Shown here: positions 6,757 to 44,433 of the stretch, piece after piece
How positions within the stretch are numbered: position 1 is the first letter of the stretch
Layout of the letters: each line of letters opens with the position of its first letter
IMG/VR virus record: IMGVR_UViG_3300033142_000724
Coordinates: 1-44,578 of that record
Direction: 5' to 3' (one strand)
Length of the DNA stretch: 44,578 nucleotides
Source of the DNA: a virus
Translations under genes and position numbers: made by a program
Notes under the pieces: generated by a model
Seen by the model: the letters and a program-made list of their open reading frames with translations, nothing else
Told to the model about the DNA's origin: nothing
Database searches by the model: none

Positions 6757-9321
6757 ATGCGGACACAGAAAAGAATTGATGTGGTGTTGAAAGAAACAAT
6801 AGCTTTGTTTATCAATGCGGATCGGAAATTGATCCCTTTGAAACAAATTAGGCTAGACCTACCAACAGATAACCCATGGAACAAAAGACCACTATACAAC
6901 AACTGGACCACCAGACAGCACACCAAGAAACAAATTGAACATTTTGCAAAAAGGAAACACAACATTGGATGGTGTCTAGGTCCAAAGGATTTAATAATAG
7001 ATGTTGATGCTCGCAACAATGGCATTGAAGGATTTAAATTACTCCAAGCAGATTACCCACAAATTAATTTCAGCTTCTTTCCATCAGTTTCAACTGGTGG
7101 AGGGGGTTATCATATCTATGCAACCATACCATCAGAAATCGACGGTGCTAGAATTAGAAAAGGATTGCCGAAATACCCTGGCATTGACTTTCTTTCAAAT
7201 AACAGACAGATATTAATACCGGGCTGCATTCATCCAACTGGTAAATCTTATGAATGGATTGCTGATAGTCCATTCAATGATCAACCCCCTGAAATCCCCC
7301 TTAAGCTGTCTAGGCAGCTGGTATATAAAAATCCCTCCCAAACCAGCCAGCAGTCTAGGCAGCACCCTTCCACCTTACATACCCTTTCAGAGTTAGCAGA
7401 ACTGCTGTCAAAGCTTCCCGTTGAAGAGTACGATGATAATGATTCATGGTTCTCTTTAATGGCTTCAGCCCACCACTGCACAGCTGGTGAAGGCATTGAA
7501 GAATTTTTAGAGTGGTCACTAGATGATCCAGAGTACCAGGATGATGAACAAGTAATCAGATCTCGATGGGAATCGCTGGGAAGAAATGAAATAGATCCTA
7601 GAACAGTTAGAACAATCTACCGTGAAGTACAGAAGCATAATGGTGAGCTTCCAAACTTCACCACTGCATTACAGGATTTTGAAGATGATTTTGATAATGG
7701 AAATAATGCAAACTGCTTTGATGATCTGTTTGGTTTTGATGATGCTGCTGATACTACCAGCAATCTACCAGACACAAAGGGATCTAATAAAGCTGATGAA
7801 AGCAACAAGATCAGCCTTGATAGATACATTGGAAAGCTTACCAAAGAAACACCAATTGAACGAATCAATAAAGCTATTGCACAAGTTGGTAAACTATCTG
7901 CTGGAAATCAAGACAGATACATCAAAAAGATTGCTAGACGATCTGGTATCCGTTCAGAAACAATTAGAAGACAGATCAGATCAGAGCAAGAAAAAGCACA
8001 ATCGGATATAGAACAACGTATTGCAGATCGATTGCTGAAAGAAAAGTATTCAGATGGTGAGCATCTGATCTATACAATCAACCAAAGGTTTAGAGTGTTC
8101 AATGGTACTCACTGGTCTATCAAGCCAAAGCATCTATTAGAAAAGCACATTGAAAATATTGCTGAAGAAGTAAGAGATAAGGATAAAGATCTAGAGTTTA
8201 ACATAGCTCGTATCTTTGCAGGGGTTGATCGTATTGCGCGTGGTAGGGTGATGGTGGAAGAAGATTTATTTTCAATGAAGGATGGACCACCACCAATATT
8301 GAATCTAGCCAATGGTGAATTACACTTTGATGCACATGGTAATTCAAAGCTGAAGAGACATAATTACAAATCCTATTTACCCTGGTGTCTAGACCATATC
8401 AAACACAACTCTAAAGCCAAGTGCACTCTATATGATAACACCTTACTTGAAATATTCTCCAAGGCTGATGAACCAAAAGAAATAATTAGGCATATGTGGG
8501 AAATGCTGGGCTATGCAATTCAATCTGAAAAGAACCTTCCTATCTGGTGTATGTTCTATGGTCATGGCGCCGATGGTAAAAGCACCATCATTAGAATATG
8601 GGCTGCAATGCTAGGACCAGCAGCCATTTCACAAAGCCTATCTAGCCTAGATATTAGAAAGAATAAACACGCCTATTCAGAGTTACCAGGAAAGCTATTA
8701 CAGTATGATGCTGATCTAGCTGATGGTGTGTACCTGCCTGAAGCTTATCTAAAGAATGTTTCTGAAAATGGCTGGTTGCTTGCAGATCCAAAAGGAATGA
8801 CACCATATAACTTTAGAGCTTGCATTACATCCATTGCAGCAACCAACTATTTACCACCAATCAGAAATCTATCTAAGGGTGTTGCAAGGCGGGCAATGCT
8901 CATACCATTTAACCGAAGCTTTAAACAGGAAGAACAAGATATAAACAGGGCTGATAGAATAATTCAATCTGAATTGTCTGGTGTGTTGAACAAAGCATTG
9001 CAAGGGCTGAAGCGACTTAGAAAACGTGGTTACTTTTCTGAACCATCTGAATGCAAGCAATTAAAAAATACATGGATGGAACATAGTTCAAACATCTTAG
9101 CATTCTTGAATGAAGTGCAGCCAATCAGAAAGGATAGTTGGAGAAAGAGAAAGATGAATGCTAAGAAGCTCTATGAACAATTAAATGATTGGTACAATGA
9201 AGAAGAGATTGAAGGCAGAAACCGTGTCAGTTATCGCGGTATGGTAAAGAAATTGCGTGATATGGGTTTCATTATCAAACGTGGTAGCAGTGGCCTAACC
9301 TCAGTGGAAGTTAGAAGGTGA
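6757..9321 (+). CDS. Bifunctional primase-polymerase / SF3-type helicase
   Basis: About 854 residues. The N-terminal domain is an archaeo-eukaryotic Prim-Pol type primase: K-x-P-x-x-x-W entry motif, then IIDVDARNNG with Asp82 and Asp84 as metal ligands, and GGGGYHIY. An acidic linker (about 295-340) contains FEDDFDN and CFDDLFGFDD. The C-terminal part is a D5/SF3-like helicase with Walker A GHGADGKST (602-610) and an Asp-rich Walker B-like segment (LLQYDADLADG). It would prime and unwind at the phage origin. The start is uncertain: ATG 6757 lacks a good ribosome site, GTG 6781 follows AGAAAAG, and GTG 6712/ATG 6715 would include the upstream repeat arm. Confidence 0.9.
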   Translation: MRTQKRIDVVLKETIALFINADRKLIPLKQIRLDLPTDNPWNKRPLYNNWTTRQHTKKQIEHFAKRKHNIGWCLGPKDLIIDVDARNNGIEGFKLLQADYPQINFSFFPSVSTGGGGYHIYATIPSEIDGARIRKGLPKYPGIDFLSNNRQILIPGCIHPTGKSYEWIADSPFNDQPPEIPLKLSRQLVYKNPSQTSQQSRQHPSTLHTLSELAELLSKLPVEEYDDNDSWFSLMASAHHCTAGEGIEEFLEWSLDDPEYQDDEQVIRSRWESLGRNEIDPRTVRTIYREVQKHNGELPNFTTALQDFEDDFDNGNNANCFDDLFGFDDAADTTSNLPDTKGSNKADESNKISLDRYIGKLTKETPIERINKAIAQVGKLSAGNQDRYIKKIARRSGIRSETIRRQIRSEQEKAQSDIEQRIADRLLKEKYSDGEHLIYTINQRFRVFNGTHWSIKPKHLLEKHIENIAEEVRDKDKDLEFNIARIFAGVDRIARGRVMVEEDLFSMKDGPPPILNLANGELHFDAHGNSKLKRHNYKSYLPWCLDHIKHNSKAKCTLYDNTLLEIFSKADEPKEIIRHMWEMLGYAIQSEKNLPIWCMFYGHGADGKSTIIRIWAAMLGPAAISQSLSSLDIRKNKHAYSELPGKLLQYDADLADGVYLPEAYLKNVSENGWLLADPKGMTPYNFRACITSIAATNYLPPIRNLSKGVARRAMLIPFNRSFKQEEQDINRADRIIQSELSGVLNKALQGLKRLRKRGYFSEPSECKQLKNTWMEHSSNILAFLNEVQPIRKDSWRKRKMNAKKLYEQLNDWYNEEEIEGRNRVSYRGMVKKLRDMGFIIKRGSSGLTSVEVRR

Positions 9322-9326
9322 AACAA

Positions 9327-9524
9327 ATGATTGAAGAGAAATGTAAAAGATGTGATCACAAGTTGACTTGCTTTGAAGGGCAAGTATTCCCATGTGAAAG
9401 ATGTGATCAAGGAATTGATCTGTATGCTGAAAGAACTGGTGCTGATGCTGCTGCATTGAAAAGGATGTTACGTTGCAATGAAAACCCAGTTGTAAATTTA
9501 GTTAGAAAGGCTGTTGGCATATGA
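9327..9524 (+). CDS. Small zinc-ribbon protein
   Basis: 65 residues with C-K-R-C, a further Cys near residue 16 and C-E-R-C near residue 25, a four- or five-Cys zinc site. The C-terminal half is a plain helix. GAAGGTG precedes the ATG. A GTG nine bases upstream, overlapping the primase stop, is a possible alternative. It may be an accessory of the primase-helicase, by position only. Confidence 0.65.
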   Translation: MIEEKCKRCDHKLTCFEGQVFPCERCDQGIDLYAERTGADAAALKRMLRCNENPVVNLVRKAVGI

Positions 9525-9838
9525 GTAATTTAATGTCCTTGCGGGAAGAAATAAAGCAACTACAAGAACAAGTTGCTAGATGGATGAACCGAACTGAAAA
9601 GGCCGAATTCGAACGCGACAAGGCACTAGTGTGCAAATTGGATCTACTTCGTGTTGTTGAATTAGCATATCGCAAACACCAATTGGACGATCACACAATC
9701 GGATCTTGTGAACTTGGGGATCGCCTTTGTGACGCAATCTGTAATGAAGTTGGCGCTAGTGTTTTCTCTGCATGGGTTGAAGGCATAGATGATGGTGATT
9801 CATTAATTGAATTCATCAAAAAGTTTGAGGAAAAATAA
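9521..9838 (+). CDS. Hypothetical protein with N-terminal coiled coil
   Basis: 105 residues. Residues about 5-50 form a charged heptad-like helix (SLREEIKQLQEQVARWMNRTEKAEFERDKA in pattern). The rest is acidic and mixed, ending in a Lys/Glu helix. It probably dimerises, and I do not recognise the family. It overlaps the previous stop by four bases (ATGA) and the next gene starts directly after its stop. Confidence 0.65.
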   Translation: MSNLMSLREEIKQLQEQVARWMNRTEKAEFERDKALVCKLDLLRVVELAYRKHQLDDHTIGSCELGDRLCDAICNEVGASVFSAWVEGIDDGDSLIEFIKKFEEK

Positions 9839-10102
9839 ATGAGCACCAAAAAGAAAAAGCCAACAACAACCCATGTGTTGAAACGGCTAAGGGGTGAAGT
9901 TACTAGGCTGAAGAAACGCGATAAGATGCACACCAATCATAAGATGCACCTATACTATTATATATCTCGTATGTCTCAATTCGATTGCTATACACCAGAA
10001 AATAAATGTGATCTGAACAATCAAACCAAATTAGATGAATGGTGCCCAAGTTGTCTAGCTAAACATCTGATGAACGCAACTGGTGTAAAGGAGCAAGGCT
10101 GA
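9839..10102 (+). CDS. Hypothetical basic Cys-containing protein
   Basis: 87 residues. The N-terminal 35 are very basic (STKKKKPTTTHVLKRLRGEVTRLKKRDK), and four cysteines (Cys50, Cys57, C-P-S-C near 69-72) can form one zinc site. It ends in VKEQG with the AAAGGAGCAAGGCTGATG junction. The basic part suggests nucleic-acid binding. Otherwise unknown. Confidence 0.62.
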   Translation: MSTKKKKPTTTHVLKRLRGEVTRLKKRDKMHTNHKMHLYYYISRMSQFDCYTPENKCDLNNQTKLDEWCPSCLAKHLMNATGVKEQG

Positions 10103-10287
10103 TGGTAACTCTCAACATGAAACGTTACAGAATGCTGCATAAGAAAGCAATGCAAGTTGATGAACAACCATACATCCCTTTTAGAAAGTGGCTTAGACAA
10201 GCTGCAAAGAACAAAGACATTAATGTGATTGGTGTAACTGGTAAGGTGCAACAGATTCTAACACCACCCAAGAAAGGTAAGAAGTAA
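10102..10287 (+). CDS. Hypothetical small basic protein
   Basis: 61 residues with many Lys/Arg, including the tail TPPKKGKK. A helix with FRKWLRQAAKN is followed by a short strand pair. It starts at a TGATG junction and its stop overlaps the next ATG (TAATG). Not recognised. Confidence 0.6.
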   Translation: MVTLNMKRYRMLHKKAMQVDEQPYIPFRKWLRQAAKNKDINVIGVTGKVQQILTPPKKGKK

Positions 10288-10577
10288 TGTCTGCTGATAA
10301 TGGTGTATACATCTTAAAAACAGATGGACCACAATACAGGGTGAAACATCTTCAAGCAATTGAAAATGTACATTTTGATGATGAACTAGGTGATTTCACA
10401 GAAGACAGCAACATCCATATACTAAATGCTAGACGTATGTGGAAAGGCTGCACTGTGTTTGATAATGATCTAGAAGCAATGCAGAAAGCTAGAGACATTT
10501 ACACCAGGATTCTAGAAAGTGATTGCCCAATCTGCGAATATGGTATTTCATTTATTGCTATCAAGGAAAAATTCTAA
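10287..10577 (+). CDS. Conserved phage protein of the MSADNGVYIL type
   Basis: 96 residues. The start MSADNGVYILKT and the following YRVKHLQAIENV match a family of about 100 residues that I know from many unrelated phages, without known function. Conserved-looking Asp, Glu and Trp residues and a C-x2-C near residue 83 are visible. It overlaps both neighbours by one base (TAATG junctions). Confidence 0.72.
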   Translation: MSADNGVYILKTDGPQYRVKHLQAIENVHFDDELGDFTEDSNIHILNARRMWKGCTVFDNDLEAMQKARDIYTRILESDCPICEYGISFIAIKEKF

Positions 10578-10735
10578 TGGTATATTATTTAGTACCAATT
10601 TTGTTTTTTGTTTCTAGCGCTTTTCAGCTGTATCATTTTTTTGTTAAAGACAACTACTTAAATTTTATTGCTTCATTAGGTTTTCTAATTGCTGCAATAT
10701 CTGCACTTCATAGTGCAAGAAAGATTACCAAATGA
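10577..10735 (+). CDS. Small two-pass membrane protein
   Basis: 52 residues with two hydrophobic segments, about 3-20 (YYLVPILFFVSSAFQLYH) and 28-44 (NFIASLGFLIAAISAL), and a basic end (SARKITK). The ATG is at a TAATG junction and is preferred to a longer frame inside the previous gene. Size and topology fit a small holin or an early inner-membrane protein. It is about 1 kb upstream of the amidase, so a lysis role is possible but not shown. Confidence 0.6.
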   Translation: MVYYLVPILFFVSSAFQLYHFFVKDNYLNFIASLGFLIAAISALHSARKITK

Positions 10736-11097
10736 AAGTCATTTACATAGCTGGACCATTCAGAGCTGATACCACATGGGAAATTGAATGCAACGTTAGA
10801 AGGGCTGAAGAATTGGGGCTATGTGTTGCATCACTTGGGGCAATGCCATTAATACCTCATGCCAATACAAGATTCTTTCACGGTTTGATTGATGATCGGT
10901 TCTGGCTAGATGGTACACAAGAGTTGTTGAAGCGATGTGATGCAGTAATAATGATGAAAGATTGGCAATGCTCAACAGGTTCAAAGGGTGAAAAGGAATT
11001 GGCAGAAAATTTGAACATACCAATTTTTTATGAATCTGAAACTGTCAGTGCTCTTTATGACTGGCTGAAAAAAGAAAACGAAAAAAGGAATTACTAA
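10732..11097 (+). CDS. DUF4406 / nucleoside deoxyribosyltransferase-like protein
   Basis: 121 residues. The start KVIYIAGPFRA is the typical first strand and loop of this Rossmann-like family. A PLIPH segment and a later ...CDAVIMMKDWQCSTGSKGEKELAENLNIPIF follow, with Ser and Gly-x-x-x-E in the place of the catalytic Glu of nucleoside 2-deoxyribosyltransferases. It may modify or salvage nucleotides; members of DUF4406 are mostly untested. It starts at an ATGA overlap with the upstream stop. A large hairpin follows the gene. Confidence 0.8.
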   Translation: MKVIYIAGPFRADTTWEIECNVRRAEELGLCVASLGAMPLIPHANTRFFHGLIDDRFWLDGTQELLKRCDAVIMMKDWQCSTGSKGEKELAENLNIPIFYESETVSALYDWLKKENEKRNY

Positions 11098-11107
11098 AGT
11101 GGATCAA

Positions 11108-11240
11108 TTCGATCCCTGTAATGGTGTGCTGATGGTAGCAATAAAAACAACTAACGAAAGGGCAACGGCTACACCACAAAATATGTTCAGTGTTGAAGGA
11201 AGAAGCTCACGACTATCAGCACACCATTACAGGGATCGAA
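11108..11240 (+). ncRNA. Large perfect stem-loop between two early genes
   Basis: The 26 bases at 11108-11133 are the exact reverse complement of 11215-11240, around an 81-base loop. No reading frame of note runs through it. The 3' arm is followed by AAAAAGAAAGG and the next start codon (11259), so the helix stops just short of the next ribosome site. It could be a processed RNA, an RNase III site, a translation switch, or a structured small RNA. A T-run is missing, so it is not a standard terminator. Confidence 0.65.
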
Positions 11241-11258
11241 AAAGAAAGGAAATGAACA

Positions 11259-11561
11259 ATGCCAGCTAAACCAACTAGGCCAACTAGATCAGTTGCCATG
11301 GCGGCGAAGTGTCATAACTGCACTGGTGGTTATCTAGATGGAAAAAAGGATTGTGAAAATACTCAATGTGAATTGTACCCATGGATGCCATACAAGAAAA
11401 TGAAACCCGATCTTGAATGGCTCAAATACAATCCAAAGCAAAAGGGGTTGGTAACATGGGAAGATTCACAAAGGGATCTAACAGACGAACAAAGGCAAGC
11501 AATTGCTGATCGGTTGTCCAAGTCTAGAAAATTGGAAGCTGATTGTGAAGATCTATTCTAG
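11259..11561 (+). CDS. Hypothetical Cys-cluster protein with acidic EDLF end
   Basis: 100 residues. A Cys cluster in the N-terminal half (KCHNCTGGYLDGKKDC..CELYPWMPYKK) looks like a zinc site and belongs to a pattern common in phage early proteins. The middle has Trp and Lys, then a helix (TDEQRQAIADRLSKSRKL). The C-terminus is EADCEDLF, an acidic Leu-Phe end shared with several replication proteins of this genome. AGAAAGG lies before the ATG. Confidence 0.72.
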   Translation: MPAKPTRPTRSVAMAAKCHNCTGGYLDGKKDCENTQCELYPWMPYKKMKPDLEWLKYNPKQKGLVTWEDSQRDLTDEQRQAIADRLSKSRKLEADCEDLF

Positions 11562-11570
11562 GGGGATGTG

Positions 11571-11804
11571 ATGGGTAAAAAGAATACATATAGTATGAAT
11601 GAAAATAGTTCTTGGGCTGATGTAAGAAAAGAACTTATGAGAATTGTTGAAACATATTTATGTGATGGACCTGGACCAATAGAAGAAAGAATTGCATTTG
11701 TAAAAGAATGGATTGGAGCACAAACTAGATTAATTGAGAATATAGTAATACACCTTGATAGTGCAGTTGATAAAGTATTTGAGAAAAGGAATAATCTTAA
11801 ATGA
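11571..11804 (+). CDS. Hypothetical helical protein
   Basis: 77 residues, mostly predicted helix with Glu, Arg and Ile (VRKELMRIVETYL, IAFVKEWIGAQTRLIENIVIHLDSAVDKVFEK in pattern). The ATG follows AGGGGG; the GTG just before it is also possible. It overlaps the amidase gene by four bases (ATGA). No function is recognised. Confidence 0.6.
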   Translation: MGKKNTYSMNENSSWADVRKELMRIVETYLCDGPGPIEERIAFVKEWIGAQTRLIENIVIHLDSAVDKVFEKRNNLK

Positions 11805-12478
11805 ATCATAGCATTATAATCAACGGTGAAGATGTTGGGTTGCCAAATGGTGTTCTTGGTAGTCACTATAAATCAAGCCTTCTATTACCTCATTTCAAAC
11901 ACAAGCCCAGAAGAAGAAAGCTGAAGCATCTGGTATTGCATGAAACAGCTGGTAACACCGCTCGCGGTTGTATGCGAACGCTGGTCAAGAAAGGTTATGG
12001 TGTCCATCTAATTCTAGATCGCAAGGGTGTTGTTACTTGCCATGGAGATCTAGCAACTGAAGTAATGATTCATGCAAACCAGTTGAACAAAACTTCTATT
12101 GGTATTGAAGTTGTAAACCCTTATGCACCAAAGATTGCAGCATATGATTTTGATTCCATCCCTGCTGAGTGGTGGTGCTGGTGTCCAGATAAAAAAGATC
12201 GGCAGTATGTCTTACCAACAGATGCACAGTTAGACACCTTATATATTTTGATCCCTTGGTTGTGTGAAAAACTTGGTATCCCCTATGTGTTTCCCACTTG
12301 GTATTTAAATCCTAGATGCCGCAAACGGAAGCGACCATCACCAGGAGTTGTTGCACATAGAGACTTTGCAAAACATGCGGATGGAAGATACCTTCTAGAA
12401 TGGTTGATGCTTGGCCACCGTGGAAGTTTAACAAAAACAAATAGCTTTCACAGCCTGTTCACAAAGGAGCAAAGCTGA
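11801..12478 (+). CDS. N-acetylmuramoyl-L-alanine amidase endolysin (Amidase_2 type)
   Basis: 225 residues. The zinc ligand His47 lies in LVLHETAGN, a middle His in VMIHANQLN, and the last part of the site is AHRDFAKHADGRY (His186, His192 or nearby). TSIGIEVVNPY is the usual central strand. It cleaves the bond between muramic acid and the peptide in peptidoglycan. No signal peptide is seen, so it needs a holin. It is in the rightward block, far from the holin-like gene at 21750-22259. It ends in KEQS with the AAAGGAGCAAAGCTGATG junction. Confidence 0.88.
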   Translation: MNHSIIINGEDVGLPNGVLGSHYKSSLLLPHFKHKPRRRKLKHLVLHETAGNTARGCMRTLVKKGYGVHLILDRKGVVTCHGDLATEVMIHANQLNKTSIGIEVVNPYAPKIAAYDFDSIPAEWWCWCPDKKDRQYVLPTDAQLDTLYILIPWLCEKLGIPYVFPTWYLNPRCRKRKRPSPGVVAHRDFAKHADGRYLLEWLMLGHRGSLTKTNSFHSLFTKEQS

Positions 12479-12660
12479 TGCAATACATAATTGTAATAGG
12501 TGCGGGTTACTTTGAAGGCTGGCATAAAAATATAATGAACTGTGCATCAGTTTGTTCATCAAAAAGAAAAGCACATACCTTTAATAAACAAGAAAAAGTT
12601 AGAAGAGTTATACAAAGGTTGCGTGGGTTGAGCTATCCCGCACACATGGAGATCAGATAA
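12478..12660 (+). CDS. Hypothetical small basic protein
   Basis: 60 residues. It has a hydrophobic start (MQYIIVIGAGYF), two cysteines and a basic second half (KRKAHTFNKQEKVRRVIQRLRG). The ATG overlaps the amidase stop and the gene ends in a TAATG junction. The function is unknown; its place between the amidase and a membrane-anchored protein suggests a lysis role only by context. Confidence 0.55.
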   Translation: MQYIIVIGAGYFEGWHKNIMNCASVCSSKRKAHTFNKQEKVRRVIQRLRGLSYPAHMEIR

Positions 12661-12920
12661 TGGGTAGCATACTAACAACCGTGATTGCAATTGCTACAAT
12701 ACCAATTGAGGCATATCAAAAGTGGAAGAAGAAACAAGCCAAGAAAGCTGCAATCAAAAAGGCAAAGAAAGAAGCATTGGAAAAAGAAAAAGAACGTTGG
12801 TCAAATTGGCGAGCGGATAGGCTGAAGATTGGTGAAGAGAACCATGCAAAGAATACAGCTGCAATCATAGAGAAAGCAAAGCAAGATATAAATGAAGTGG
12901 ATGAGAATCCATACGAGTGA
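12660..12920 (+). CDS. Membrane-anchored Lys/Ala-rich coiled-coil protein (possible spanin-like)
   Basis: 86 residues. Residues 2-20 form an N-terminal membrane segment (GSILTTVIAIATIPIEAYQ), followed by a long charged helix (KWKKKQAKKAAIKKAKKEALEKEKERW in pattern) and an acidic end. An N-terminal anchor with a following coiled coil is the layout of inner-membrane spanins such as Rz, and the amidase is two genes upstream. The segment lacks clear polar flanks, and no overlapping Rz1-type lipoprotein gene was seen, so the role stays tentative. Confidence 0.6.
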   Translation: MGSILTTVIAIATIPIEAYQKWKKKQAKKAAIKKAKKEALEKEKERWSNWRADRLKIGEENHAKNTAAIIEKAKQDINEVDENPYE

Positions 12921-12948
12921 TCGCAACTCTCAGGGGAAAGGTGAAACA

Positions 12949-13173
12949 ATGGAAACATTAACCGCAACTGGCAGAAGAAAGGCACTGTTGCTTGGTGCCA
13001 AAATGATTGAATGGTATCTGTTGAAGAAAGGAGAGGTAACGATCCCTGGCTTTGGTAAGTTCTATCTTTCAGCAATCAAGGTGAAGGCTGCTGTTGGTGA
13101 TGCAGATACAAAAGAAGTGTTTGCAATTCGCTTCAAACCATCAGCAAAACTAAAGGGGGTTTTCAATGGGTAA
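12949..13173 (+). CDS. HU/IHF-like DNA-binding protein, copy 1
   Basis: 74 residues. The motif V-T-I-P-G-F-G-K-F-Y-L and the end IRFKPSAKLKGVFN match the saddle part of HU/IHF proteins (v-x-l-x-G-F-G-x-F ... v-x-F-x-x-x-x-x-L-K). The N-terminal helices are short. The arm that carries the R-N-P-x-T-G tip in HU seems reduced. It probably bends or coats DNA. AAAGGTG lies before the ATG. It overlaps its paralogue, so the two may form a heterodimer. Confidence 0.78.
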   Translation: METLTATGRRKALLLGAKMIEWYLLKKGEVTIPGFGKFYLSAIKVKAAVGDADTKEVFAIRFKPSAKLKGVFNG

Positions 13174-13414
13174 GTCATATGAACAGCAAGAAAAAGGAGT
13201 GCTGAAAGATGCAGCTGAAATCATCACACAAGAGTTAGAAGGTGGTGAAGAAATTAGTATACCCAAGTTTGGCAAGTTCTATCTTACCAAGATCAACACA
13301 TCAACCACCATTGGTGGTGCACCTGATACAGTGATGAACAAAGTTTGTTTCAGACCTTATGGGCAATTGAAATCTAGAGTTGCCAAAAAAGAGTCTGTTG
13401 ATGATTTGTTTTAA
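13166..13414 (+). CDS. HU/IHF-like DNA-binding protein, copy 2, acidic DDLF end
   Basis: 82 residues. It shares IPKFGKFYL and a VCFRPYGQLKSRV end with the gene before, so it is a divergent second HU-like protein, with the same reduced arm. It adds KKESVDDLF at the C-terminus, an acidic Leu-Phe end like those of other replication proteins here. IHF-style heterodimers with one tail-bearing subunit are a reasonable idea. It overlaps copy 1 by eight bases. Confidence 0.75.
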   Translation: MGKSYEQQEKGVLKDAAEIITQELEGGEEISIPKFGKFYLTKINTSTTIGGAPDTVMNKVCFRPYGQLKSRVAKKESVDDLF

Positions 13415-13423
13415 GGTGATGCA

Positions 13424-13774
13424 ATGAAACATTTATTTATATATGTTGCTGGTCCAACACAAAGCTATATGTATGAAGATAAGGCTGATAGGATTGCTGG
13501 TCTAGATGTTATCTTCCATCGGCTAATTGATGCAGGAATACCAACACACCAATCAGATGTGTATAACAAAAGTGTTCTAAGCTGCTGTTCTGATCTGCTG
13601 GTGATAGCATATAAAGGTTTCAATGATGATCCTATCACCAAGAATATGATTGCTTTTGCCAGAGCAAACGACATACCAACATTCATCATGAACCCTGGTG
13701 AAAGCTCCAACCTGGACAACTTCATAACTGTATTGAGAAACCGCACCACTAATGGTGCACAACAAACCCGATAG
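13424..13774 (+). CDS. Divergent nucleoside deoxyribosyltransferase-like / SLOG-like Rossmann protein
   Basis: 116 residues. It opens with LFIYVAGPTQSY, the same A-G-P strand-loop as the gene at 10732. Later SDLLVIAYKGFNDDPITKNMIAFARANDIPTFIMN follows the family layout. The Glu expected after the Gly-rich loop is replaced by Asn/Met, so catalysis may be lost. It may bind a nucleotide or nucleotide-derived ligand. The ribosome site is modest (AAGGTG). Confidence 0.65.
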   Translation: MKHLFIYVAGPTQSYMYEDKADRIAGLDVIFHRLIDAGIPTHQSDVYNKSVLSCCSDLLVIAYKGFNDDPITKNMIAFARANDIPTFIMNPGESSNLDNFITVLRNRTTNGAQQTR

Positions 13775-13791
13775 GGGAAAGGTAAGAGACA

Positions 13792-14322
13792 ATGAAGATT
13801 TCAGTAACCATCGATGTGGGCTCGGAGAATGAAGAAGGTGTATTGAAGCTGCTTTCTAAGCTCAATTCTAACGCACCTAGCAGCCCTTCAGAGGGGTCTA
13901 GACCGGCTCCGAGTGCCACAACCAAGCCCATTGGCAAACGGGACGTTAACAAGGCATATAAGGACCTTACAGAAGAGAATGGTGCAAAGGCTGGAAGGGC
14001 TGTGCTGGCCAAGTTTGAAGCTGATGATATTGGGGAGCTTGATAAGGGCAAGTATGCTGAGTTTGTGAAGGCTTGCAAGGTTGCGCTTGGTGGTGGTGGT
14101 GATGGTGGTGGTGAAGAGACTACTGAAGAAACCCCTGAAGAGAGCACTGAGGAAACCATCACCAAGAAAGATGCCAAGAAAGCCTTAATGGATCTGATTG
14201 GTGAGAATGGAAAGAAAGACGGACTGAAGGCATTGAAGAAGCACAAGGTAGAGAAACTATCTGAATTGGATGAAAGCAATTATGCTGCATTTGTTCAGAC
14301 TTGTTCAGAGTTGATGGGCTGA
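13792..14322 (+). CDS. Two-repeat helical protein with acidic linker
   Basis: 176 residues. A short strand-rich start (KISVTIDVGSENEEG) is followed by two related domains of about 54 residues, from about 47-101 and 123-176. They share I-x-K-x-D-x-x-K-A, L-x-x-E-N-G-x-K, and E-L-D-x-x-x-Y-A-x-F-V. The linker is Gly- and Glu-rich. This single domain is known at the ends of various phage proteins, with no fixed function. The pair may be a protein-protein platform in the DNA-handling module. Confidence 0.7.
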   Translation: MKISVTIDVGSENEEGVLKLLSKLNSNAPSSPSEGSRPAPSATTKPIGKRDVNKAYKDLTEENGAKAGRAVLAKFEADDIGELDKGKYAEFVKACKVALGGGGDGGGEETTEETPEESTEETITKKDAKKALMDLIGENGKKDGLKALKKHKVEKLSELDESNYAAFVQTCSELMG

Positions 14323-14343
14323 AAAGAAAGGGATGGTAAGACG

Positions 14344-14733
14344 ATGGCAAAGAAAAACTCACTGAATGAAATGATTGCTGCTGCTACCACTGAATTCACA
14401 GCTGCAATCATCGATGCAATCAAGGCTGCTACATTGGATGATCTCCAATCACTAGCACCAACAAAGCGGAGAGGCAGAAAGCCCAGTAGAAAGCCCGGAC
14501 CTAAGCCCGGTAGAAAGCCCGGACCTAAGCCCGGTAGAAAGCCCGGACCTAAGCCCGGTAAGAAACGCGGACCAAAGCCCGGTTCAAAGCGCAAGCCCGG
14601 ATCTAAAAAGCCCGGACCTAAGCCCAGTAAGAAGAAGGCAGATGTGAAGAAGGTTGCAAAGAAGGTTGTGAAGAAGGCAGCTGTGAAGAAGGCAGCTGTG
14701 AAGAAGACAACCAAGCCAACTGAAAAGAAGTAA
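14344..14733 (+). CDS. Histone H1-like / AT-hook-like basic repeat protein
   Basis: 129 residues. A short helical start (about 1-38) is followed by RGRKP and repeats of R/K-K-P-G-P-K-P-G (about 42-95), then KKVAKKVVKKAAVKKAAVKK. The RGRKP unit is an AT-hook core, and the Lys-Ala tail resembles bacterial histone H1-like proteins. It should bind DNA with little sequence demand and compact it. Together with the two HU-like genes it forms a chromatin-like set. The DNA under the repeats has a 24-base tandem unit. Confidence 0.8.
   Translation: MAKKNSLNEMIAAATTEFTAAIIDAIKAATLDDLQSLAPTKRRGRKPSRKPGPKPGRKPGPKPGRKPGPKPGKKRGPKPGSKRKPGSKKPGPKPSKKKADVKKVAKKVVKKAAVKKAAVKKTTKPTEKK
14486..14634 (+). repeat. 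24-base tandem coding repeat
   Basis: The unit AGAAAGCCCGGACCTAAGCC (plus four bases) is repeated about three times exactly and then in changed copies. It encodes the R-K-P-G-P-K-P-G motif. Such a repeat can expand or shrink by slippage, so the length may vary between relatives. Confidence 0.7.
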
Positions 14734-14739
14734 TTGCAA

Positions 14740-15969
14740 ATGGGTTTACTAGCACAGCCTAGGAAACCTAGCTGGTCTGCCAGTTCTGCACATCGCTGGA
14801 TGCAATGTTCAGGGTGTGTAGGGCTGTGCAGATGGGTTGAACGTTCACCATCTAGTATCTATGCAAGGGAAGGTACAGCAGCCCACCACCTAGCGGCTAT
14901 CTGTTTAGAAGATGGTTGCATTCATCCAACACATTTGATTGGTGAAAAGCTGACAGCTGAACAATACTATGAAGATGATTACACCTTCACAGTTTCAAAT
15001 GATATGGCGTTAGCTGTTGGCAAGTATACCAGTCTGATTGAATCCCTTGCTAGTCACCACAAAGAAACCATCATACTAATTGAAAAAAAGATCTCACTAG
15101 CCAGCATCAATAAAAATATGCGTGGTGTAATTGATTGCTCTTTGGTGGTTCCTGGTGAAAGTCTGAAGGTACTAGATTACAAACATGGAAAGGGTGTGAT
15201 TGTTGACATTGAAGATAATGAACAGCTTATTTATTACGCACTAGGAGTAATAGAAAAGTTAGATTCAATGGGTGTTGATACTGACTTCAAAACAATAGAG
15301 CTATTTATTGTGCAGCCTAGATCATTTGGTGCATCAATTAAATCCTGGTTGATTGACAACCCTAGAAAATTTGTGAATACGTGGCACGGCAAGATCAAAA
15401 AAGCATACATAGCAACAATAGAAAACCAGGATGAATACCACATCAATAAAGATTGCAGATGGTGTAATGGTCTGGTGTGGTGTCCTAAGCTGAAAGAGTT
15501 TTGCCTAGACATTCAACGCAACATTGAAGGCAGGTATAAACAGATGAAAGATTTAAAGCCAAGTGAACTAACAGAACTGATCAGGGTTGCACCATCTGTA
15601 AATGCATATCTCCAAGCTGTTGCTGGCCATGGTAAAGAACTTGCATTGAATGGTAAAAAGTTTGATGGGTACAAGCTGGTACAAGCTGGTAGATCTTCAC
15701 GCAATTGGTTGAGTGGTAAAGAAGCTGATGTTATTTCATTCCTAGAAGATGAATGTTTCTTGGATGAAGAAGATTTCAAAACAGGTAAACTAATGTCACC
15801 AGCACAGCTAGAAAAGGAGATACCAGCAAAGCTATTTGACAAGTTAGGCAAATTCATTCACAGAAAAAGCTCAAGTGGTTTTGCATTGGTCCCTAACTCT
15901 GATCGAAGGCAAGCAGTAACAACAGCTGAAGATGATTTTGAAGATGATTTTGATGATCTGTTTAGCTGA
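14740..15969 (+). CDS. DUF2800 Cas4-like PD-(D/E)XK nuclease
   Basis: 409 residues. The start SWSASSAHRWMQCSGC and the layout match DUF2800. The nuclease core is Asp132 (GVIDCS), then Asp146 and Lys148 (VLDYKHGKG). Cys23 with Cys239, Cys242 and Cys248 (CRWC...C) is placed like the 4Fe-4S ligands of Cas4/AddB-type nucleases. It probably trims DNA ends for recombination or replication. The end EDDFEDDFDDLFS carries the acidic Leu-Phe motif. A TTG two codons upstream, directly after the previous stop, is an alternative start. Confidence 0.82.
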   Translation: MGLLAQPRKPSWSASSAHRWMQCSGCVGLCRWVERSPSSIYAREGTAAHHLAAICLEDGCIHPTHLIGEKLTAEQYYEDDYTFTVSNDMALAVGKYTSLIESLASHHKETIILIEKKISLASINKNMRGVIDCSLVVPGESLKVLDYKHGKGVIVDIEDNEQLIYYALGVIEKLDSMGVDTDFKTIELFIVQPRSFGASIKSWLIDNPRKFVNTWHGKIKKAYIATIENQDEYHINKDCRWCNGLVWCPKLKEFCLDIQRNIEGRYKQMKDLKPSELTELIRVAPSVNAYLQAVAGHGKELALNGKKFDGYKLVQAGRSSRNWLSGKEADVISFLEDECFLDEEDFKTGKLMSPAQLEKEIPAKLFDKLGKFIHRKSSSGFALVPNSDRRQAVTTAEDDFEDDFDDLFS

Positions 15970-15980
15970 AAGGTGAATTG

Positions 15981-16181
15981 ATGGTATATAAGATTGAAGG
16001 TGCAACCATCAAAGCAACAACTGGTAAAGCTATTCTAGTTGAAGCTGATTGTTTTGATGAAGATGAATGGATACCACTATCACAAGTTGATGATGAATCC
16101 GAGATATGGAGCAAAGGTGAAGAAGGTACATTGACTGTTAGTGATTGGATTGCAAACAAGAAAGGGTTGAACAATGACTGA
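15981..16181 (+). CDS. Hypothetical small acidic protein
   Basis: 66 residues, strand-rich first half (VYKIEGATIKATTGKAILVEA), then an acidic patch (FDEDEWIPLSQVDDESEIW). The I-x-A-T-x-K-A-I-L-V motif and W-I-P-x-S look like a small beta-barrel that I have seen beside phage single-strand binding genes. AAAGGTG lies before the ATG. It overlaps the next gene by eight bases. Confidence 0.65.
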   Translation: MVYKIEGATIKATTGKAILVEADCFDEDEWIPLSQVDDESEIWSKGEEGTLTVSDWIANKKGLNND

Positions 16182-16737
16182 TTTTATTAAGTCACCAGTT
16201 GGAAGGGTTAGTTTTCCATCAGTGTTTGAAAAAACATCATTTGAAAACAGTGAACCAAAGTATTCTGTAACTCTATTATTTGATGCTGATGATCCTGGTT
16301 TGAAGAAGCTAAAGAAGTTAGCAGCTGAAGCAATTAAAGAAAAGTGGAATGATGATCCACCTTCCAACATGCACAACCCTTTTAGAAAGGGATCAGAGAA
16401 ACCCGATCTAGATGGGTATGAAGGTAAGATATTTGTGAAGTTCAGTTCAACTCGTAAACCACAAGTAATGGACAAGTTCAAAAATGAATTGACAGATGTT
16501 GAAGATTTTTATGCAGGGTGCTTTGCTAAAGTGATGTGCAATACCTATGCATATGACAACATTGGAAGAGGTGTTGCTTTTGGGCTTGGCCATGTGCTGA
16601 AAGTAAAGGATGGTGATCCCTTTGGTGCTGGTTCATCTGATCCAATGGATGATTTCGCAGATGATTTTGATGATGATGATAATGATGGTGATGATTCTTC
16701 TAATTCAAGTGATGATCTAGATTCTCTTTTCGATTAG
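16174..16737 (+). CDS. DUF2815 single-stranded DNA-binding protein
   Basis: 187 residues. An OB-fold body (about 1-145; KYSVTLLFDADDP, then YAYDNIGRGVAFGLGHVLKV) matches the DUF2815/Enc34-like phage SSB family. It would coat single-stranded DNA at the fork. The tail (about 148-187) is almost all Asp/Asn/Ser and ends in DDLDSLFD, like the acidic docking tails of T7 gp2.5 and bacterial SSB, but with an own Leu-Phe core. It sits between the Cas4-like nuclease and the DNA polymerase, a common order. Confidence 0.85.
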   Translation: MTDFIKSPVGRVSFPSVFEKTSFENSEPKYSVTLLFDADDPGLKKLKKLAAEAIKEKWNDDPPSNMHNPFRKGSEKPDLDGYEGKIFVKFSSTRKPQVMDKFKNELTDVEDFYAGCFAKVMCNTYAYDNIGRGVAFGLGHVLKVKDGDPFGAGSSDPMDDFADDFDDDDNDGDDSSNSSDDLDSLFD

Positions 16738-16746
16738 ACTTTACCA

Positions 16747-18750
16747 ATGCCATTCAACCCACAAGTTGTAATTGATTTTGAAACCCGTTCAGAATTGAAC
16801 ATAACAAAAACATCTAACCATGTTTATGCAACACACCCTTCAACTGAAGTGATGTGTTTAGCATACAAGATCAACGGGAAAGAAACACAACTGTGGTTAC
16901 CTGATGATCATCTAATGCCAGAAAGCTTAGAAGGTATCATCAATAATGGCTGTGAAATATGGGGACACAACGTAGCATTTGAAAGAGCAATCTGGAATGC
17001 TATCATGGTTCCTGTTTTCGATTGGTGCAAAGTCAGTTTCAATCAGTGGTGCTGTTCTGCTGCACAAGCTGCTGCACTTTCATTGCCACGGTCACTTGAT
17101 AAGGTTGCAAAAGTTCTGAAGCTCACTGAACAGAAAGATGCATCTGGACATAAGGTAATGATGCGTCTTTCTAAACCTCGCAAACCTTCCAAGTATGATA
17201 AGAGCAAGTGGGATGAAACCCCGGAAAAATTACAGAAGCTTTACAGGTATTGCAAGCAAGATGTTGAAACTGAATATGCACTAACTGAAAAGTTACCAAA
17301 GCTAATACCATCTGAACAAAAGCTATGGCTGCTAGATCAGAAGATAAATGAACGGGGTGTATACTGCGATAGAGAAACCATCAACACCATCTTAGATATT
17401 ATTGATAGCATGTATGAAAATGCTTGTATGGAATTAGCAGAAATAACTGGTGGTGGGATTACTACACCAAACCAACGAGACAGAATAAAAGACTTTATAA
17501 GTTTTGTTGGTGGGCTTGATATGGATTCTCTAAATAAAGAAGATGTAATTGCAGCATTAGAAACAGACTTACCACCACCAGCTAGAAGGGTGCTGGAAAT
17601 TAGGCAGTTGCTAGGTAAAGCCAGCCTTGCAAAATACAAAGCATTCATTCAACGTATGAGTGCAGATGATAGAGTAAGAAATACTCTTATCTATTGTGGT
17701 GCTGATAGAACAGGCAGATGGGCTGGAAGTGGATTGCAGGTGCATAACATTGCGCGTGGTATGTTTAGTGGTGAAGATGAAATTAATTTCTGCATTGATA
17801 AAATCCAGACAAAGTGCCTAGATATTCTAACCATGATATATGACACCATCACTGATGTGATCAGCTGGCTAGGTAGATCAATGATTATGGCACCAGCTGG
17901 CAAGATGCTTTATTGTGGTGACTATTCTTCAATTGAAAACCGGGTTTTATTCTGGCTTGCTAGAGAAACAAAAGCATTGAAGGCATTGAAAGCAGTTGAT
18001 GCAGATCCAAAGAATAACCCAGACCTATACCGCATCACAGCAGGTACCATCTATAACAAGCAACCATTGCAGGTTACCAATGATGAAAGGTTTATAGGCA
18101 AGCAAGCTAACCTAGGTTTGGGTTATGGTATGGGTGCAACCAAGTTCAAAAGCAACTGTGAAGATAAAGCTGCTGCAATGGGGATGTATCTAGACTTACC
18201 ACCAGAATTCTATAAACGAGTTACAAAGACTTGGCGAAGTACATACAGCAATGTAAAGAAGTTCTGGAATGATATTGAATGGGCTGTGATAAATGCAATC
18301 TTAGATGGTAAGACTTCAGTTGTAAATAAATACATTCAGATTCAAATGAAGAAAGGGCTATTGCTTATTCAGTTACCTAGTGGAAGGTGCCTTGTATATC
18401 ATCAACCAAAGCTATCTGAAGAAATGACTTCATGGGGTGAAATGAAATACAAGATTTCTTACATGGGAAATCACAGCACTTCTAAGAAGTGGGTGAAGAT
18501 CTATTCATGGGGTGGAAAGTTTGTTGAAAACATTGTGCAAGCTGTATCAAGGGATCTACTTGCTCACGCAATGACAACAATAGATGAAGCTGGTTACTTC
18601 ATTACCATGCATGTACATGATGAAATTGTGTGTGAAGAATCTGAACTGCCATTCAATAAATTCTTAGAGCTAATGCAATCAAAACCAGTATGGGCTTTAG
18701 ACTGTCCGATCAAGGTGGAAGGTTGGAAGGGAAAGAGGTACAGGAAATGA
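16747..18750 (+). CDS. Family A DNA polymerase with 3'-5' exonuclease
   Basis: 667 residues. Exonuclease motifs: VIDFETRSE (Asp10, Glu12), GHNVAFERAIW (about 73-83) and Y-C-K-Q-D-V-E-T-E-Y (about 167-176). Polymerase motifs: A, GDYSSIENR (Asp392); B, K-Q-A-N-L-G-L-G-Y-G (Lys452); C, HVHDEIV (Asp625, Glu626). All are intact, so it should be the replicative polymerase. It lacks an obvious acidic end of its own. The next gene starts inside its last codons (ATGA). Confidence 0.93.
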   Translation: MPFNPQVVIDFETRSELNITKTSNHVYATHPSTEVMCLAYKINGKETQLWLPDDHLMPESLEGIINNGCEIWGHNVAFERAIWNAIMVPVFDWCKVSFNQWCCSAAQAAALSLPRSLDKVAKVLKLTEQKDASGHKVMMRLSKPRKPSKYDKSKWDETPEKLQKLYRYCKQDVETEYALTEKLPKLIPSEQKLWLLDQKINERGVYCDRETINTILDIIDSMYENACMELAEITGGGITTPNQRDRIKDFISFVGGLDMDSLNKEDVIAALETDLPPPARRVLEIRQLLGKASLAKYKAFIQRMSADDRVRNTLIYCGADRTGRWAGSGLQVHNIARGMFSGEDEINFCIDKIQTKCLDILTMIYDTITDVISWLGRSMIMAPAGKMLYCGDYSSIENRVLFWLARETKALKALKAVDADPKNNPDLYRITAGTIYNKQPLQVTNDERFIGKQANLGLGYGMGATKFKSNCEDKAAAMGMYLDLPPEFYKRVTKTWRSTYSNVKKFWNDIEWAVINAILDGKTSVVNKYIQIQMKKGLLLIQLPSGRCLVYHQPKLSEEMTSWGEMKYKISYMGNHSTSKKWVKIYSWGGKFVENIVQAVSRDLLAHAMTTIDEAGYFITMHVHDEIVCEESELPFNKFLELMQSKPVWALDCPIKVEGWKGKRYRK

Positions 18751-19016
18751 GGGAATCAAAGATTGAATCCTATGCTGTAAAGATAGCCAAGCAAAAAGGT
18801 TTTATGGCTGTCAAGTATAAGGATGAATCTAGAAATGGTGGGCCAGATCATTTATTTCTTGGACCTAGCAAAGATATATTTTGGATTGAATTTAAAAGAC
18901 TAGGGGAGAAACCAAAACCACACCAATTGAAGTACCATGATATGCTTAGGTCACTTGGCTTTGAAGTGTATGTAATAGACTGCAAAGAAGATGTTGATGA
19001 ATTGTTTGGTATATAG
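18747..19016 (+). CDS. VRR-NUC domain nuclease
   Basis: 89 residues, the size of stand-alone viral VRR-NUC proteins. Motifs: Glu7 (IESYAVKIAK), Asp34 in NGGPDHLF, Glu48-x-Lys50 in IEFKRLG and Gln60 (HQLKYH). These proteins cut branched or structured DNA. The end EDVDELFGI again has an acidic Leu-Phe core. It overlaps the polymerase by four bases and the helicase by one (TAGTG). The frame starting 19 codons earlier inside the polymerase was rejected. Confidence 0.85.
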   Translation: MRESKIESYAVKIAKQKGFMAVKYKDESRNGGPDHLFLGPSKDIFWIEFKRLGEKPKPHQLKYHDMLRSLGFEVYVIDCKEDVDELFGI

Positions 19017-20428
19017 TGCACTTCACCCCATACCAGAAGCAAAGGGAAGCTATAACCTTTTTATTGAAGCACCCTTTCTCTGGTGTGTTTGCTGATCCTG
19101 GTGAGGGAAAGACAGCAATCACCCTTTCTACAATCAACATTCTAAAACGACTGCGAACCAATTACAGTGCATTGATAGTTGCACCGTTGACAGTTTGTTA
19201 CAATGTTTGGCCAGATGAAATAGCACTATGGGACCAGTTCAATGAAATTGATTGGTGTATTCTCCATGGGAAACACAAGCTAGAAAAGCTCCAAGAGAAA
19301 CATGATCTATATCTTATAAACCCCGAAGCAATGAAGTGGTTGTTTCAAAACCTTTCACGGTATTATAGAAAATTTCCTTACTATCATTTAATTCTAGATG
19401 AGAGCACCAGATTTAAAAATATGCGTGGTGTTCAGAACAAAACTGAAAGATGTAGAGCACTGAAGATCTTTCTTCACCGATTCAAAAGGCGTACCATTCT
19501 AACCGGGACACCAATCCCGGAATCATTACTAGATATATTCGGGCAAATGTATTGTATTGATGAAGGTAAAACCCTTGGTAAACACATTGTCATTTTCAGA
19601 GAAAAGTATTTCAATGATCGTGGATACAAACACCACCACAAATGGATTGCAAGGCCAGAAGCAAGCAAAGCAATTGAAGAAAGAATTGCACCTAGAATTC
19701 TTAGAATAGAAACAGAACACAAAAAAGATCCTATCATCAATAAAGTATGGGTAACATTACCACCAGAGATTCAAGCCAACTATGATGAATTAGAAAAGAA
19801 ACTTTATACCACCATTGAAGGTGAAGAATATTTTACAGATACAGCAACCAGCAAATACAATGCACTTAGACAAATTGCATCAGGTTGCCTTTATGAAAAA
19901 ATAGATTCTTTTGAAAACACACCTAAACTTTTCAGAAGAAAAACTTATAATTTACACCTTGCAAAATTTGAAGCTCTAGAGAATCTGATAAATGAGCTTC
20001 ACGGTAAACCGCTGCTGATAGGATACTATTATAGATTTATCATACCTCACCTAGAGAAAGCCCTAAAGGTGTCTCTACCTGCCTTGAATGGTGACACCAG
20101 CCAGTCTACAATGAAAAAGTATATAAGGCAGTGGAACAAAAGCAAGCTACCACTGATGGTGGGCCAGCCCCAATCTATAGGCCACGGGTTGAACCTGCAC
20201 AAAGGGATCGGGCGAGATATAGCATGGTACAATTTACCAGATCGGTTTGAATGGTTTGATCAGTTCAACAGAAGAATTCACAGATCTGGTGTAACAGCTA
20301 GGGTGCACTTGATACTTGCTCGAAACACCATCGATCAGTTATTATGGTATCGACTGCACAAGAAAGGTTCCAATCAGCAGACTCTATTGGATGGGCTGAA
20401 AGGTTATCTAAAAGAAAGGTATGGATGA
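19016..20428 (+). CDS. SNF2-like superfamily 2 helicase/translocase
   Basis: 470 residues. The start [11 protein letters not shown] is a Q-motif, then Walker A at 29-33 (DPGEGKT), DEST at 128-131, T-G-T-P-I-P-E-S (motif III) and a second lobe ending in [12 protein letters not shown] and [10 protein letters not shown] (motifs V and VI). It should move on double-stranded DNA. Together with VRR-NUC it forms a pair found in many phages. It uses GTG as start, directly at the upstream stop. Confidence 0.88.
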
Positions 20429-21198
20429 TGAAATATTTTTTTATTATTTTTCTAATTGGTTGTGTAGAACATCACCACCATTATTATGATGCAAGCCCAT
20501 TAGAAGATGTTTCATCTTCAGATGGTGATACAGATTCAGATAGTGATACAGATACAGACACAGATGCAGATTCAGATAGTGATACAGATACAGACACAGA
20601 TGCAGATACAGACACAGATGCAGATTCAGATAGTGATACAGATACAGACACAGATGCAGATACAGACACAGATGCAGATTCAGATAGTGATACAGATACA
20701 GACACAGATGCAGATTCAGATAGTGATACAGATACAGACACAGATGCAGATTCAGATAGTGATACTGGTCTAGGTTGCTTAGAAGGTAGCTATACTATTG
20801 AAAACCAGTTTGATGTAATACCAATTCAACCATACAGCTGCATCAGTGGAAATCTAATAGTTGATGCACCAGGATTACAATTACTAGAATTACCAAATTT
20901 AAAAAGCATTGGTGGCAATCTGTGGATCACAGGATCATTCTTCAACCTAGATGGTATTTCAACAATAGTAAATATTGGTGGTGATTTAAATATTAGTGGT
21001 TGTGAAAACCTAGTAAACCTAAATGGTCTAGAAAATATTATCACTATTAATAATTTATATATGTATGAAAACCCAAGCTTGTTAGGGTGTGAAATATGTG
21101 AATTTATCAACCAACTAAATTTAACCCCTGATAATTTTGAAGTATACTATTTTTTAGAAGATGAATGCTATTCTGAATTGAATGGTTTTGATTGCTAA
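20425..21198 (+). CDS. Surface lipoprotein with Asp-Thr/Ser repeats and receptor-L-like repeats
   Basis: 257 residues. A short signal with lipobox L-I-G-C (lipidated Cys at residue 13) is followed by VEHHHHYY. From about 37 to 114 there is a nearly pure Asp-Ser/Thr/Ala stalk. The C-terminal part (about 116-257) has strand repeats of the G-x-L-x-I-x-x-x-x-x-L-x-x-L type ([25 protein letters not shown]), as in receptor L domains, and six or more Cys. It is probably exported to the outer membrane. Such stalked lipoproteins are common in Myxococcota, so host origin is likely. It may block superinfection or mask the receptor. Confidence 0.78.
20533..20766 (+). repeat. 36/18-base tandem coding repeat
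   Basis: Five 36-base units encode [12 protein letters not shown], with two 18-base half units (DTDTDA) inserted and a last partial unit. The units are nearly identical at the DNA level, which suggests recent expansion by slippage or recombination. The stalk length is thus probably variable. Confidence 0.8.
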
Positions 21199-43697: not shown

Positions 43698-44433
43698 TAT
43701 CTAAATTCTTTCCTAGTTTATCTGCACCATATTTAATCAGATAGTCATTAAAAATTCTTTGAATATGGGCAAGTGATCTGAATACTTCTTTTTCAATCAG
43801 CTGGTTTATTGCCAAAATACAATCAGGATCATCACTTGAACATATTGCAGCAGCATCAGTTGCTAGTTTATCTCCAAGTGTTCTTAACTCATTTACATCA
43901 ATCAAATACAATTGGGCAAAAATATTTCTTATGGTATGTCGCGGAAGAAGCTGATTTCGTTCTTTTCGATTTGCGATTTGTAGTTTAGTAACTGCCTGTC
44001 TGGATTTTTCCAAGTCAAGACTTGTTTTATCTCGGACAAAATCCCCTGTGATTCCATCTTCATCACCAAACAAATCTTGAATTTCTTCATCAGATGTTTT
44101 GCTAGGCTGCTTTTTACTGGAAAGCTTTTCAGATTTTTCTTCATCATGTGGTGTTTCCTCGCCTAATAGATCTGCAAAGTCTGCTTCAATCTCTGATCTA
44201 GTGCGTTTCTTTTGCTTTTCTTTTTTCTTTTTTGTTCTTTGTACTCTTTTTTTCTGTGTTTCTGTTAGCAATTTTGCTTTCAGATTTTCCATATAATATC
44301 TATTGGTAGGGTGGCGGGGGTCTATTCCTTTAACAGTCTTTGTTAAACGCCCGTCCTTGATCGCAATGCAAACCGCTGCTGGCGTAATACCTAACAATTT
44401 CGCAAATTTAGCTTGGCTCATATATTCAATCAT
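43687..44433 (-). CDS. Terminase small subunit, HTH-type
   Basis: 248 residues. The start (AKFAKLLGITPAAVCIAIKDGRL, about 7-30) is a winged-helix-turn-helix like that of lambda Nu1. A Lys/Arg-rich piece (about 60-80) follows, then an acidic linker with ADFADLLGEE and EEIQDLFGDEDG (about 84-126), and a helical C-terminal part. The acidic Leu-Phe pieces recall those of the replication proteins. It overlaps the large subunit gene by 11 bases. No good ribosome site was seen. Confidence 0.82.
   Translation of the reverse strand: MIEYMSQAKFAKLLGITPAAVCIAIKDGRLTKTVKGIDPRHPTNRYYMENLKAKLLTETQKKRVQRTKKKKEKQKKRTRSEIEADFADLLGEETPHDEEKSEKLSSKKQPSKTSDEEIQDLFGDEDGITGDFVRDKTSLDLEKSRQAVTKLQIANRKERNQLLPRHTIRNIFAQLYLIDVNELRTLGDKLATDAAAICSSDDPDCILAINQLIEKEVFRSLAHIQRIFNDYLIKYGADKLGKNLDNAS

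Follow-up and report, generated by a model that had tools for sequence, protein, structure and literature searches.

The acidic C-terminal tails with Leu-Phe that occur on several proteins of this virus are the most conspicuous trace of two shared peptides, a proximal motif and a C-terminal tip, which recur on otherwise unrelated proteins, mostly of replication and recombination, and which change in concert within phage genomes. The DNA analyzed here (hereafter the window) is a stretch of 44,578 bases from an IMG/VR virus record, in which 69 genes were counted. An earlier note on this sequence had listed five proteins ending in variants of the motif and two carrying it internally, and had suggested that one hub collects them all. 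All the motifs that it quoted are present, at the ends of the products of genes 11259-11561 (CEDLF), 13166-13414 (VDDLF), 14734-15969 (FDDLFS), 16174-16737 (LDSLFD) and 18690-19016 (VDELFGI), and internally in the primase-helicase linker (CFDDLFGF, residues 320-327) and in the small terminase encoded on the minus strand (IQDLFG, residues 118-123; FADLLG, residues 86-91). The number of such tails also exceeds what acidic composition predicts: 5 of the 69 genes match the pattern [DE][DES]LF.{0,2}$, compared with a mean of 0.09 and a maximum of 2 matches in 5,000 trials in which every protein had its 12 C-terminal residues shuffled. The region to which the note assigned these proteins does begin with the primase gene at position 6757, but the small terminase (43687-44433) lies outside it.

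The replication region encodes a Prim-Pol/D5-type primase-helicase, two HU-like proteins, a DUF2800 exonuclease, a DUF2815 SSB, a family A polymerase, a VRR-NUC protein and an SNF2-like helicase, the last so labeled because its HMM matches annotated SNF2 proteins. The primase-helicase (6757-9321, plus strand) combines Prim-Pol, PriCT-2 and D5-type domains (PF09250, PF08707, PF19263; phrog_1156). The exonuclease (14734-15969, plus strand) is of the PD-(D/E)XK, Cas4/RecB-like type (PF10926, 2.3e-64; phrog_69 exonuclease), and the Enc34-type, gp2.5-like SSB and annealing protein (16174-16737, plus strand) matches PF10991 (1.9e-38) and phrog_112 and has PDB relatives 4jg2, 4klk and 5odj. The genes for these two proteins are adjacent both here and in most of the collected loci, as in a SynExo-type gene pair. 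The polymerase (16747-18750, plus strand; PF00476, phrog_17) follows directly, and the gene order duf2800-gp2.5-polA is a known and recurrent module (PMC8093625). No close relative of the window came up in queries with the polymerase or the primase; the exonuclease query gave a single distant match (26%), and the terminase query gave one fragment, which is identical across its large terminase.

Three window proteins carry the proximal motif as an FxDDF block, and exactly three do: the exonuclease (AEDDFEDDFDD), the SSB (PMDDFADDFDD) and the primase linker (LQDFEDDFD), which together account for the six highest motif scores in the whole window. The exonuclease tail TAEDDFEDDFDDLFS (15922-15966, plus strand) contains the motif twice, with scores of 22.4, the best in the window, and 21.0, followed by a DLF tip. 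The SSB consists of the OB-fold domain of DUF2815/PF10991 and an acidic, Phe-containing C-terminal tail (residues 156-187), in which the proximal motif DPMDDFADDFDDDD (16639-16680, plus strand; score 22.1) lies just past the OB fold, with D160-F161 invariant across relatives, and the tip SDDLDSLFD (16708-16734, plus strand) closes the chain. In the primase-helicase both motifs are found in the interdomain linker TALQDFEDDFDNGNNANCFDDLFGF (7663-7737, plus strand; scores 15.5 and 14.3) rather than at the C-terminus. The earlier note was right to count this linker, as the primases of other phages carry the proximal motif in the same region.

The remaining proteins named with these three are of unequal standing. 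The tails EADCEDLF of the 11259-11561 gene product (11535-11558, plus strand) and ESVDDLF of the second HU-like protein (13391-13411, plus strand; PF00216, 1e-5) are clear in the sequence; among the relatives and phage records searched, the former gave very weak matches only and the latter had no homologue. The VRR-NUC protein, in contrast, was probably listed in error: its VDELFGI end (18993-19013, plus strand) coincides with the segment at which conservation of the fold ends in relatives (VxVIDSxED...L), which align here without the motif, and none of 16 VRR proteins carries the tip, so that we read the sequence as the end of the fold and not as an added docking tail. The small terminase is a doubtful member in the window, where its linker motifs IQDLFG (44065-44082, minus strand; score 10.4) and FADLLG (44161-44178, minus strand; score 10.5) do not rise above background and where no homologues of the protein were found in phage records, although small terminases of Casjensviridae do carry the tip.

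We then examined loci gathered from phage records, IMG/VR and GTDB genomes, of which 81 SSB clusters were kept. The DLF form did not survive as a motif conserved among relatives, which use other tips; outside the exonucleases and SSBs, the LF tail pattern of the window was matched by only 1 of 2,467 ORFs in related loci. What persists upon alignment of distant exonucleases and SSBs is an invariant Phe in both tails, within a proximal motif of the form A-x-[DE]-[DE]-F-x-x-[ILV]. A PSSM for this motif hit 82% of exonuclease tails and 91% of SSB tails, rates that are partly in-sample since the matrix was built from these same tails. The fair controls are shuffles, other proteins, primases and held-out phages: shuffled versions of the same tails carried the motif in 12% (exonuclease) and 23% (SSB) of cases, and other C-termini in 2.7%. 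In other phages, primase linkers contained 3.45 matches per 10,000 residues compared with 0.32 in other proteins, and 35% of primases reached a score of at least 11 compared with 1.3% of other large proteins.

The copies within one genome resemble each other more closely than they resemble copies from other genomes. Over the ten-residue motif, own-genome and permuted similarity were 18.7 and 11.7 for the exonuclease-SSB pair, 18.0 and 11.1 for primase-SSB, and 15.2 and 10.5 for primase-exonuclease; the own-genome value was reached in none of 20,000 permutations for any of the three pairs (p≤1e-4 for exonuclease-SSB and primase-SSB). The flanks of the motif alone also gave significant own-genome similarity, and control windows displaced by 12-30 residues showed no comparable excess. 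When permutation was confined to SSB clades, which removes shared ancestry only in part, p was 0.0002 for the exonuclease and 0.0002 to 0.013 for the primase. Individual pairs (exonuclease/SSB, by locus) illustrate this: RAEDYF/RAEDYF in L106, SLFQPVKK/KLFKPVGR in L110 and LANEYFKRK/LANKFFKAK in L035. The held-out genomes behave in the same way, with NEFA in both proteins of L142, ADDFADVS...DLV and EDEFDDIT...DLV in Bordetella phage BPP-1, and AYDDED and AYDEDE in Enc34, where Phe has become Tyr in both. The claim that one short motif is spread over unrelated folds is thereby borne out, as it recurs in distant phages and changes in concert within their genomes.

When a short peptide changes in concert across unrelated proteins encoded by one genome, a common receptor is the best explanation, and we consider it very likely that one or more common receptors keep these copies under concerted selection. 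Two explanations would dispense with such a receptor. The tails may be acidic and disordered for reasons of composition, DNA mimicry or solubility, their likeness being incidental; acidic tails are indeed general among SSBs, and the Enc34 SSB binds double-stranded DNA once its C-terminus is removed (PMC5686142). We regard this as very improbable, given that shuffled tails, other proteins and neighboring windows do not reproduce the pattern, that unrelated proteins of one phage show the same substitutions (F to Y, D to E, V to I), and that basic variants match between exonuclease and SSB as well (SLFQPVKK/KLFKPVGR, NEYFKRK/NKFFKAK). The tails could also have spread as DNA copies through recombination, without any selection for a common partner, and the window exonuclease and primase do share identical stretches, GATGATCTGTTT and GATTTTGAAGATGATTTTGAT. 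Across genomes, however, identical residues use identical codons at a rate of 0.56 compared with 0.52 expected, so that the likeness cannot generally be put down to recent copying of DNA; the Leu codons of the window LF motifs differ (CTG, CTA, CTT, TTG), and orthologues switch their last residue in parallel, leaving this explanation highly improbable.

The second peptide, an acidic tip with a hydrophobic end, was found on 56% of SSBs, 24% of exonucleases, 13% of primases and 1.6% of other proteins, and on none of 67 related polymerases. Its form varies among relatives (DEV, DEI, DLV, DLL, DFL), and 84 genes match the tip of their own SSB compared with 54 after permutation (maximum 75 in 100). 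Outside Casjensviridae its covariation is modest (exonuclease p=0.03, primase p=0.07). Within this family, which provides the clearest case, [DE][DE]I ends the primase, a small ORF, the exonuclease, the SSB, the SNF2 protein, the small terminase and a recombination-associated exonuclease of Aeromonas phage AhMtk13b, while in Enc34 [DE][DE]V ends the orthologous primase, ORF3, exonuclease, SSB, small terminase and recombination-associated protein; the Enc34 SNF2 protein ends in WDDEED, unlike these. In this pair of genomes 11 and 10 proteins fit the tip pattern compared with 0.8 and 1.0 after shuffling, so that with about one expected per genome a few of the matches are due to chance. Erwinia phage pEp has L as the final residue of its primase, small ORF, SSB, SNF2 protein and TerS, and its exonuclease has no tip. 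Judged by these sequences, the SSB appears to be the source from which the tip has been copied to further proteins of a phage. Separately, Arg-rich SSB tips (GERRRRG and GERRRRRG) replace the acidic tip in L080 and L110, and the exonuclease motif of the same phage is basic too.

Altogether we lean, by a small measure and with the receptors held as provisional, towards an explanation in which the phage would mark its DNA-metabolism enzymes with copies of two kinds of docking peptide taken from its own SSB. The proximal motif of the SSB tail, which recurs in the tail of the exonuclease and in the linker of the primase-helicase, would bind the body of another SSB molecule; SSB monomers would be chained through their tails, and the exonuclease and primase, imitating the SSB tail, may start, hold or cap such a chain on the single-stranded DNA that they produce or require. 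The outcome would be a coupling of exonuclease and annealase, which lambda Exo-Redbeta reaches by other means. The LF tip, which in this phage has putatively been copied onto the exonuclease, the primase linker, the second HU-like protein and the 11259 protein, would dock on the phage polymerase in a T7-like manner. The single hub of the earlier note gains no support as such: concerted change fits a common receptor, but two distinguishable motifs are present and may have different ones.

For the proximal motif the SSB body has, in our estimate, an even chance of being the receptor. We favor it because of published crystal contacts, the chain ends in 4jg2 and 4klk, and the survival of the motif where PolA is replaced. 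The C-termini occupy the concave β-sheet of a neighboring molecule in the Enc34 SSB, 4JG2, 4KLK and T7 gp2.5 (PMC5686142), contacts that could be lattice artefacts, and the 4jg2 and 4klk chains terminate within or just after the proximal motif. Structure prediction was carried out with AF2 on single-chain fusions reading through stop codons, derived from the window in one case and from locus L136 in the other, and with alignments built without rows from annotated phage records. In the fusion of exonuclease tail, linker and SSB core, pLDDT was approximately 56-66 in the tail compared with 44 in the linker.

For the tip, the T7 precedent leads us to favor the polymerase, which has a basic C-terminus and carries no tip in the window, as a tentative candidate for the receptor. 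The acidic tails of T7 gp4 bind basic patches of the family A polymerase gp5 (PMC12593628). The polymerase might then also be the one hub for both peptides, as gp5 is for the gp2.5 and gp4 tails, and the recurrence of the duf2800-gp2.5-polA module (PMC8093625) and the basic C-terminus of polymerases that never carry the tip are in keeping with this. We nevertheless consider it rather unlikely, as the proximal motif is kept in both exonuclease and SSB at loci where a polB-like protein (phrog_1252) replaces PolA. The AF2 model of the window SSB tail with its polymerase also left the tail undocked (pLDDT 34-45), in a run weakened by the short fusion linker and the missing tail alignment.

A receptor of the host, for instance one of the bacterial SSB-interacting proteins, whose normal ligand is the tip of the host SSB and which would be deceived by phage mimics of it, would account for those phage tips that resemble bacterial ones (ADDLPF in L095, PDDMPF in L117 and DDDLPF in a Microcystis phage). 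Most tips lack PF, though, and the exonuclease, SSB and primase motifs covary between phages without an obvious tie to the host, which makes a host hub improbable. The motif that binds the β sliding clamp is of the QL[SD]LF type, and DDLF and DSLF resemble its final residues. We rejected a clamp reading on the first position, since Gln is absent there from every window tail (C, V, F, L, V, F and I instead), and we attach almost no probability to it: the tips DEV, DEI, DLV, DLL and DFL of relatives do not fit and nothing in the proximal motif is clamp-like.

The principle of a docking tail is known from T7, where two carriers (gp2.5 and gp4) that dock on gp5 have been described. The T7 replisome resembles the present system in its gp2.5-like SSB, its primase-helicase with acidic segments, its family A polymerase and the use of the SSB tail as a protein-interaction element. 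In the phages studied here the carriers are exonuclease, primase and SSB, to which Casjensviridae add SNF2, small terminase, a recombination-associated exonuclease and small proteins; there is an additional, separate proximal AxxDF motif, and the receptors are candidates. The bacterial SSB tip (DDDIPF) is likewise an acidic stretch with a hydrophobic end on an SSB, but there the partners own the pocket, whereas in the present phages copies of the tip sit on the partner enzymes. The SSB of Enc34 (ORF6; 5ODJ, 5ODK, 5ODL) belongs to the same DUF2815 family and places its tail in a neighbor's β-sheet; the accessible part of the corresponding paper (PMC5686142) makes no mention of tail copies on other phage proteins, which are reported here. 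Our search of the open-access literature found no description of tail sharing at this breadth.

Lambda Exo-Redbeta and herpes simplex virus UL12-ICP8 also couple a 5'-3' exonuclease to an annealing protein, with different folds. In ICP8 the FNF motif of a disordered tail is thought to dock onto a neighboring ICP8 molecule (PMC12409425). The open-access literature searched yielded no case of UL12 or lambda Exo carrying a copy of the motif of its annealase. The BRC repeat motif imitates the self-association of RAD51. The BRC repeats of BRCA2 engage RAD51 through FxxA, a short Phe motif (PMC8219027); the partner of a recombinase uses a short Phe motif in this case too, but on a eukaryotic RecA-family filament and with unrelated sequences.

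On a broader and more speculative reading, to which we give less than even weight, many tailed phages may use a genome-specific peptide address that is set by the SSB tail and copied onto up to approximately eight unrelated proteins, gathering replication, recombination and packaging enzymes on one receptor; address and receptor would drift together, keeping the machines of co-infecting phages apart. Its carriers would be exonucleases, the primase-helicase, the SNF2 helicase, the small terminase, and HU-like and small unknown proteins. If true, this would explain how a working machine is built from otherwise unconnected phage replication genes and why an exonuclease and an annealing protein from different phages may pair poorly, and it would offer a sequence-only route to unknown phage proteins that belong to the replication machine. 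The docking idea can be tested in phages with a known SSB structure, e.g., Enc34.

Several smaller observations concern neighboring genes. The two-repeat protein beside the exonuclease (13792-14322, plus strand; phrog_408/7721, unknown function) lacks the tip in the window; its HMM matches Enc34 ORF3 and AhMtk13b o73, and the Casjensviridae orthologues carry the shared tip. Of 141 loci, 58 have a match to its profile, the window among them, and the match often lies immediately upstream of the exonuclease. Positions 14344-14733 encode a histone H1-like basic protein with KPGPKPGRKPG repeats, beside the two HU-like genes, and the 20344-21198 protein has a long repeat close to its N-terminal part. 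In L006, L026, L030, L047, L057 and L059 the position of PolA downstream of the SSB is occupied by a polB-like polymerase (phrog_1252, with weak matches to Pfam DNA_pol_B or PolB-exonuclease), and in Acinetobacter phage 4316 the gene at L007:12400-12978, between the polymerase and VRR-NUC genes, bears the annotation DNA polymerase III subunit beta. A phrog_7559 protein encoded near the major capsid gene is also tipped, with ADDEV in Enc34 and QDDEI in AhMtk13b (L144:17801-18085 and L158:43268-43654).
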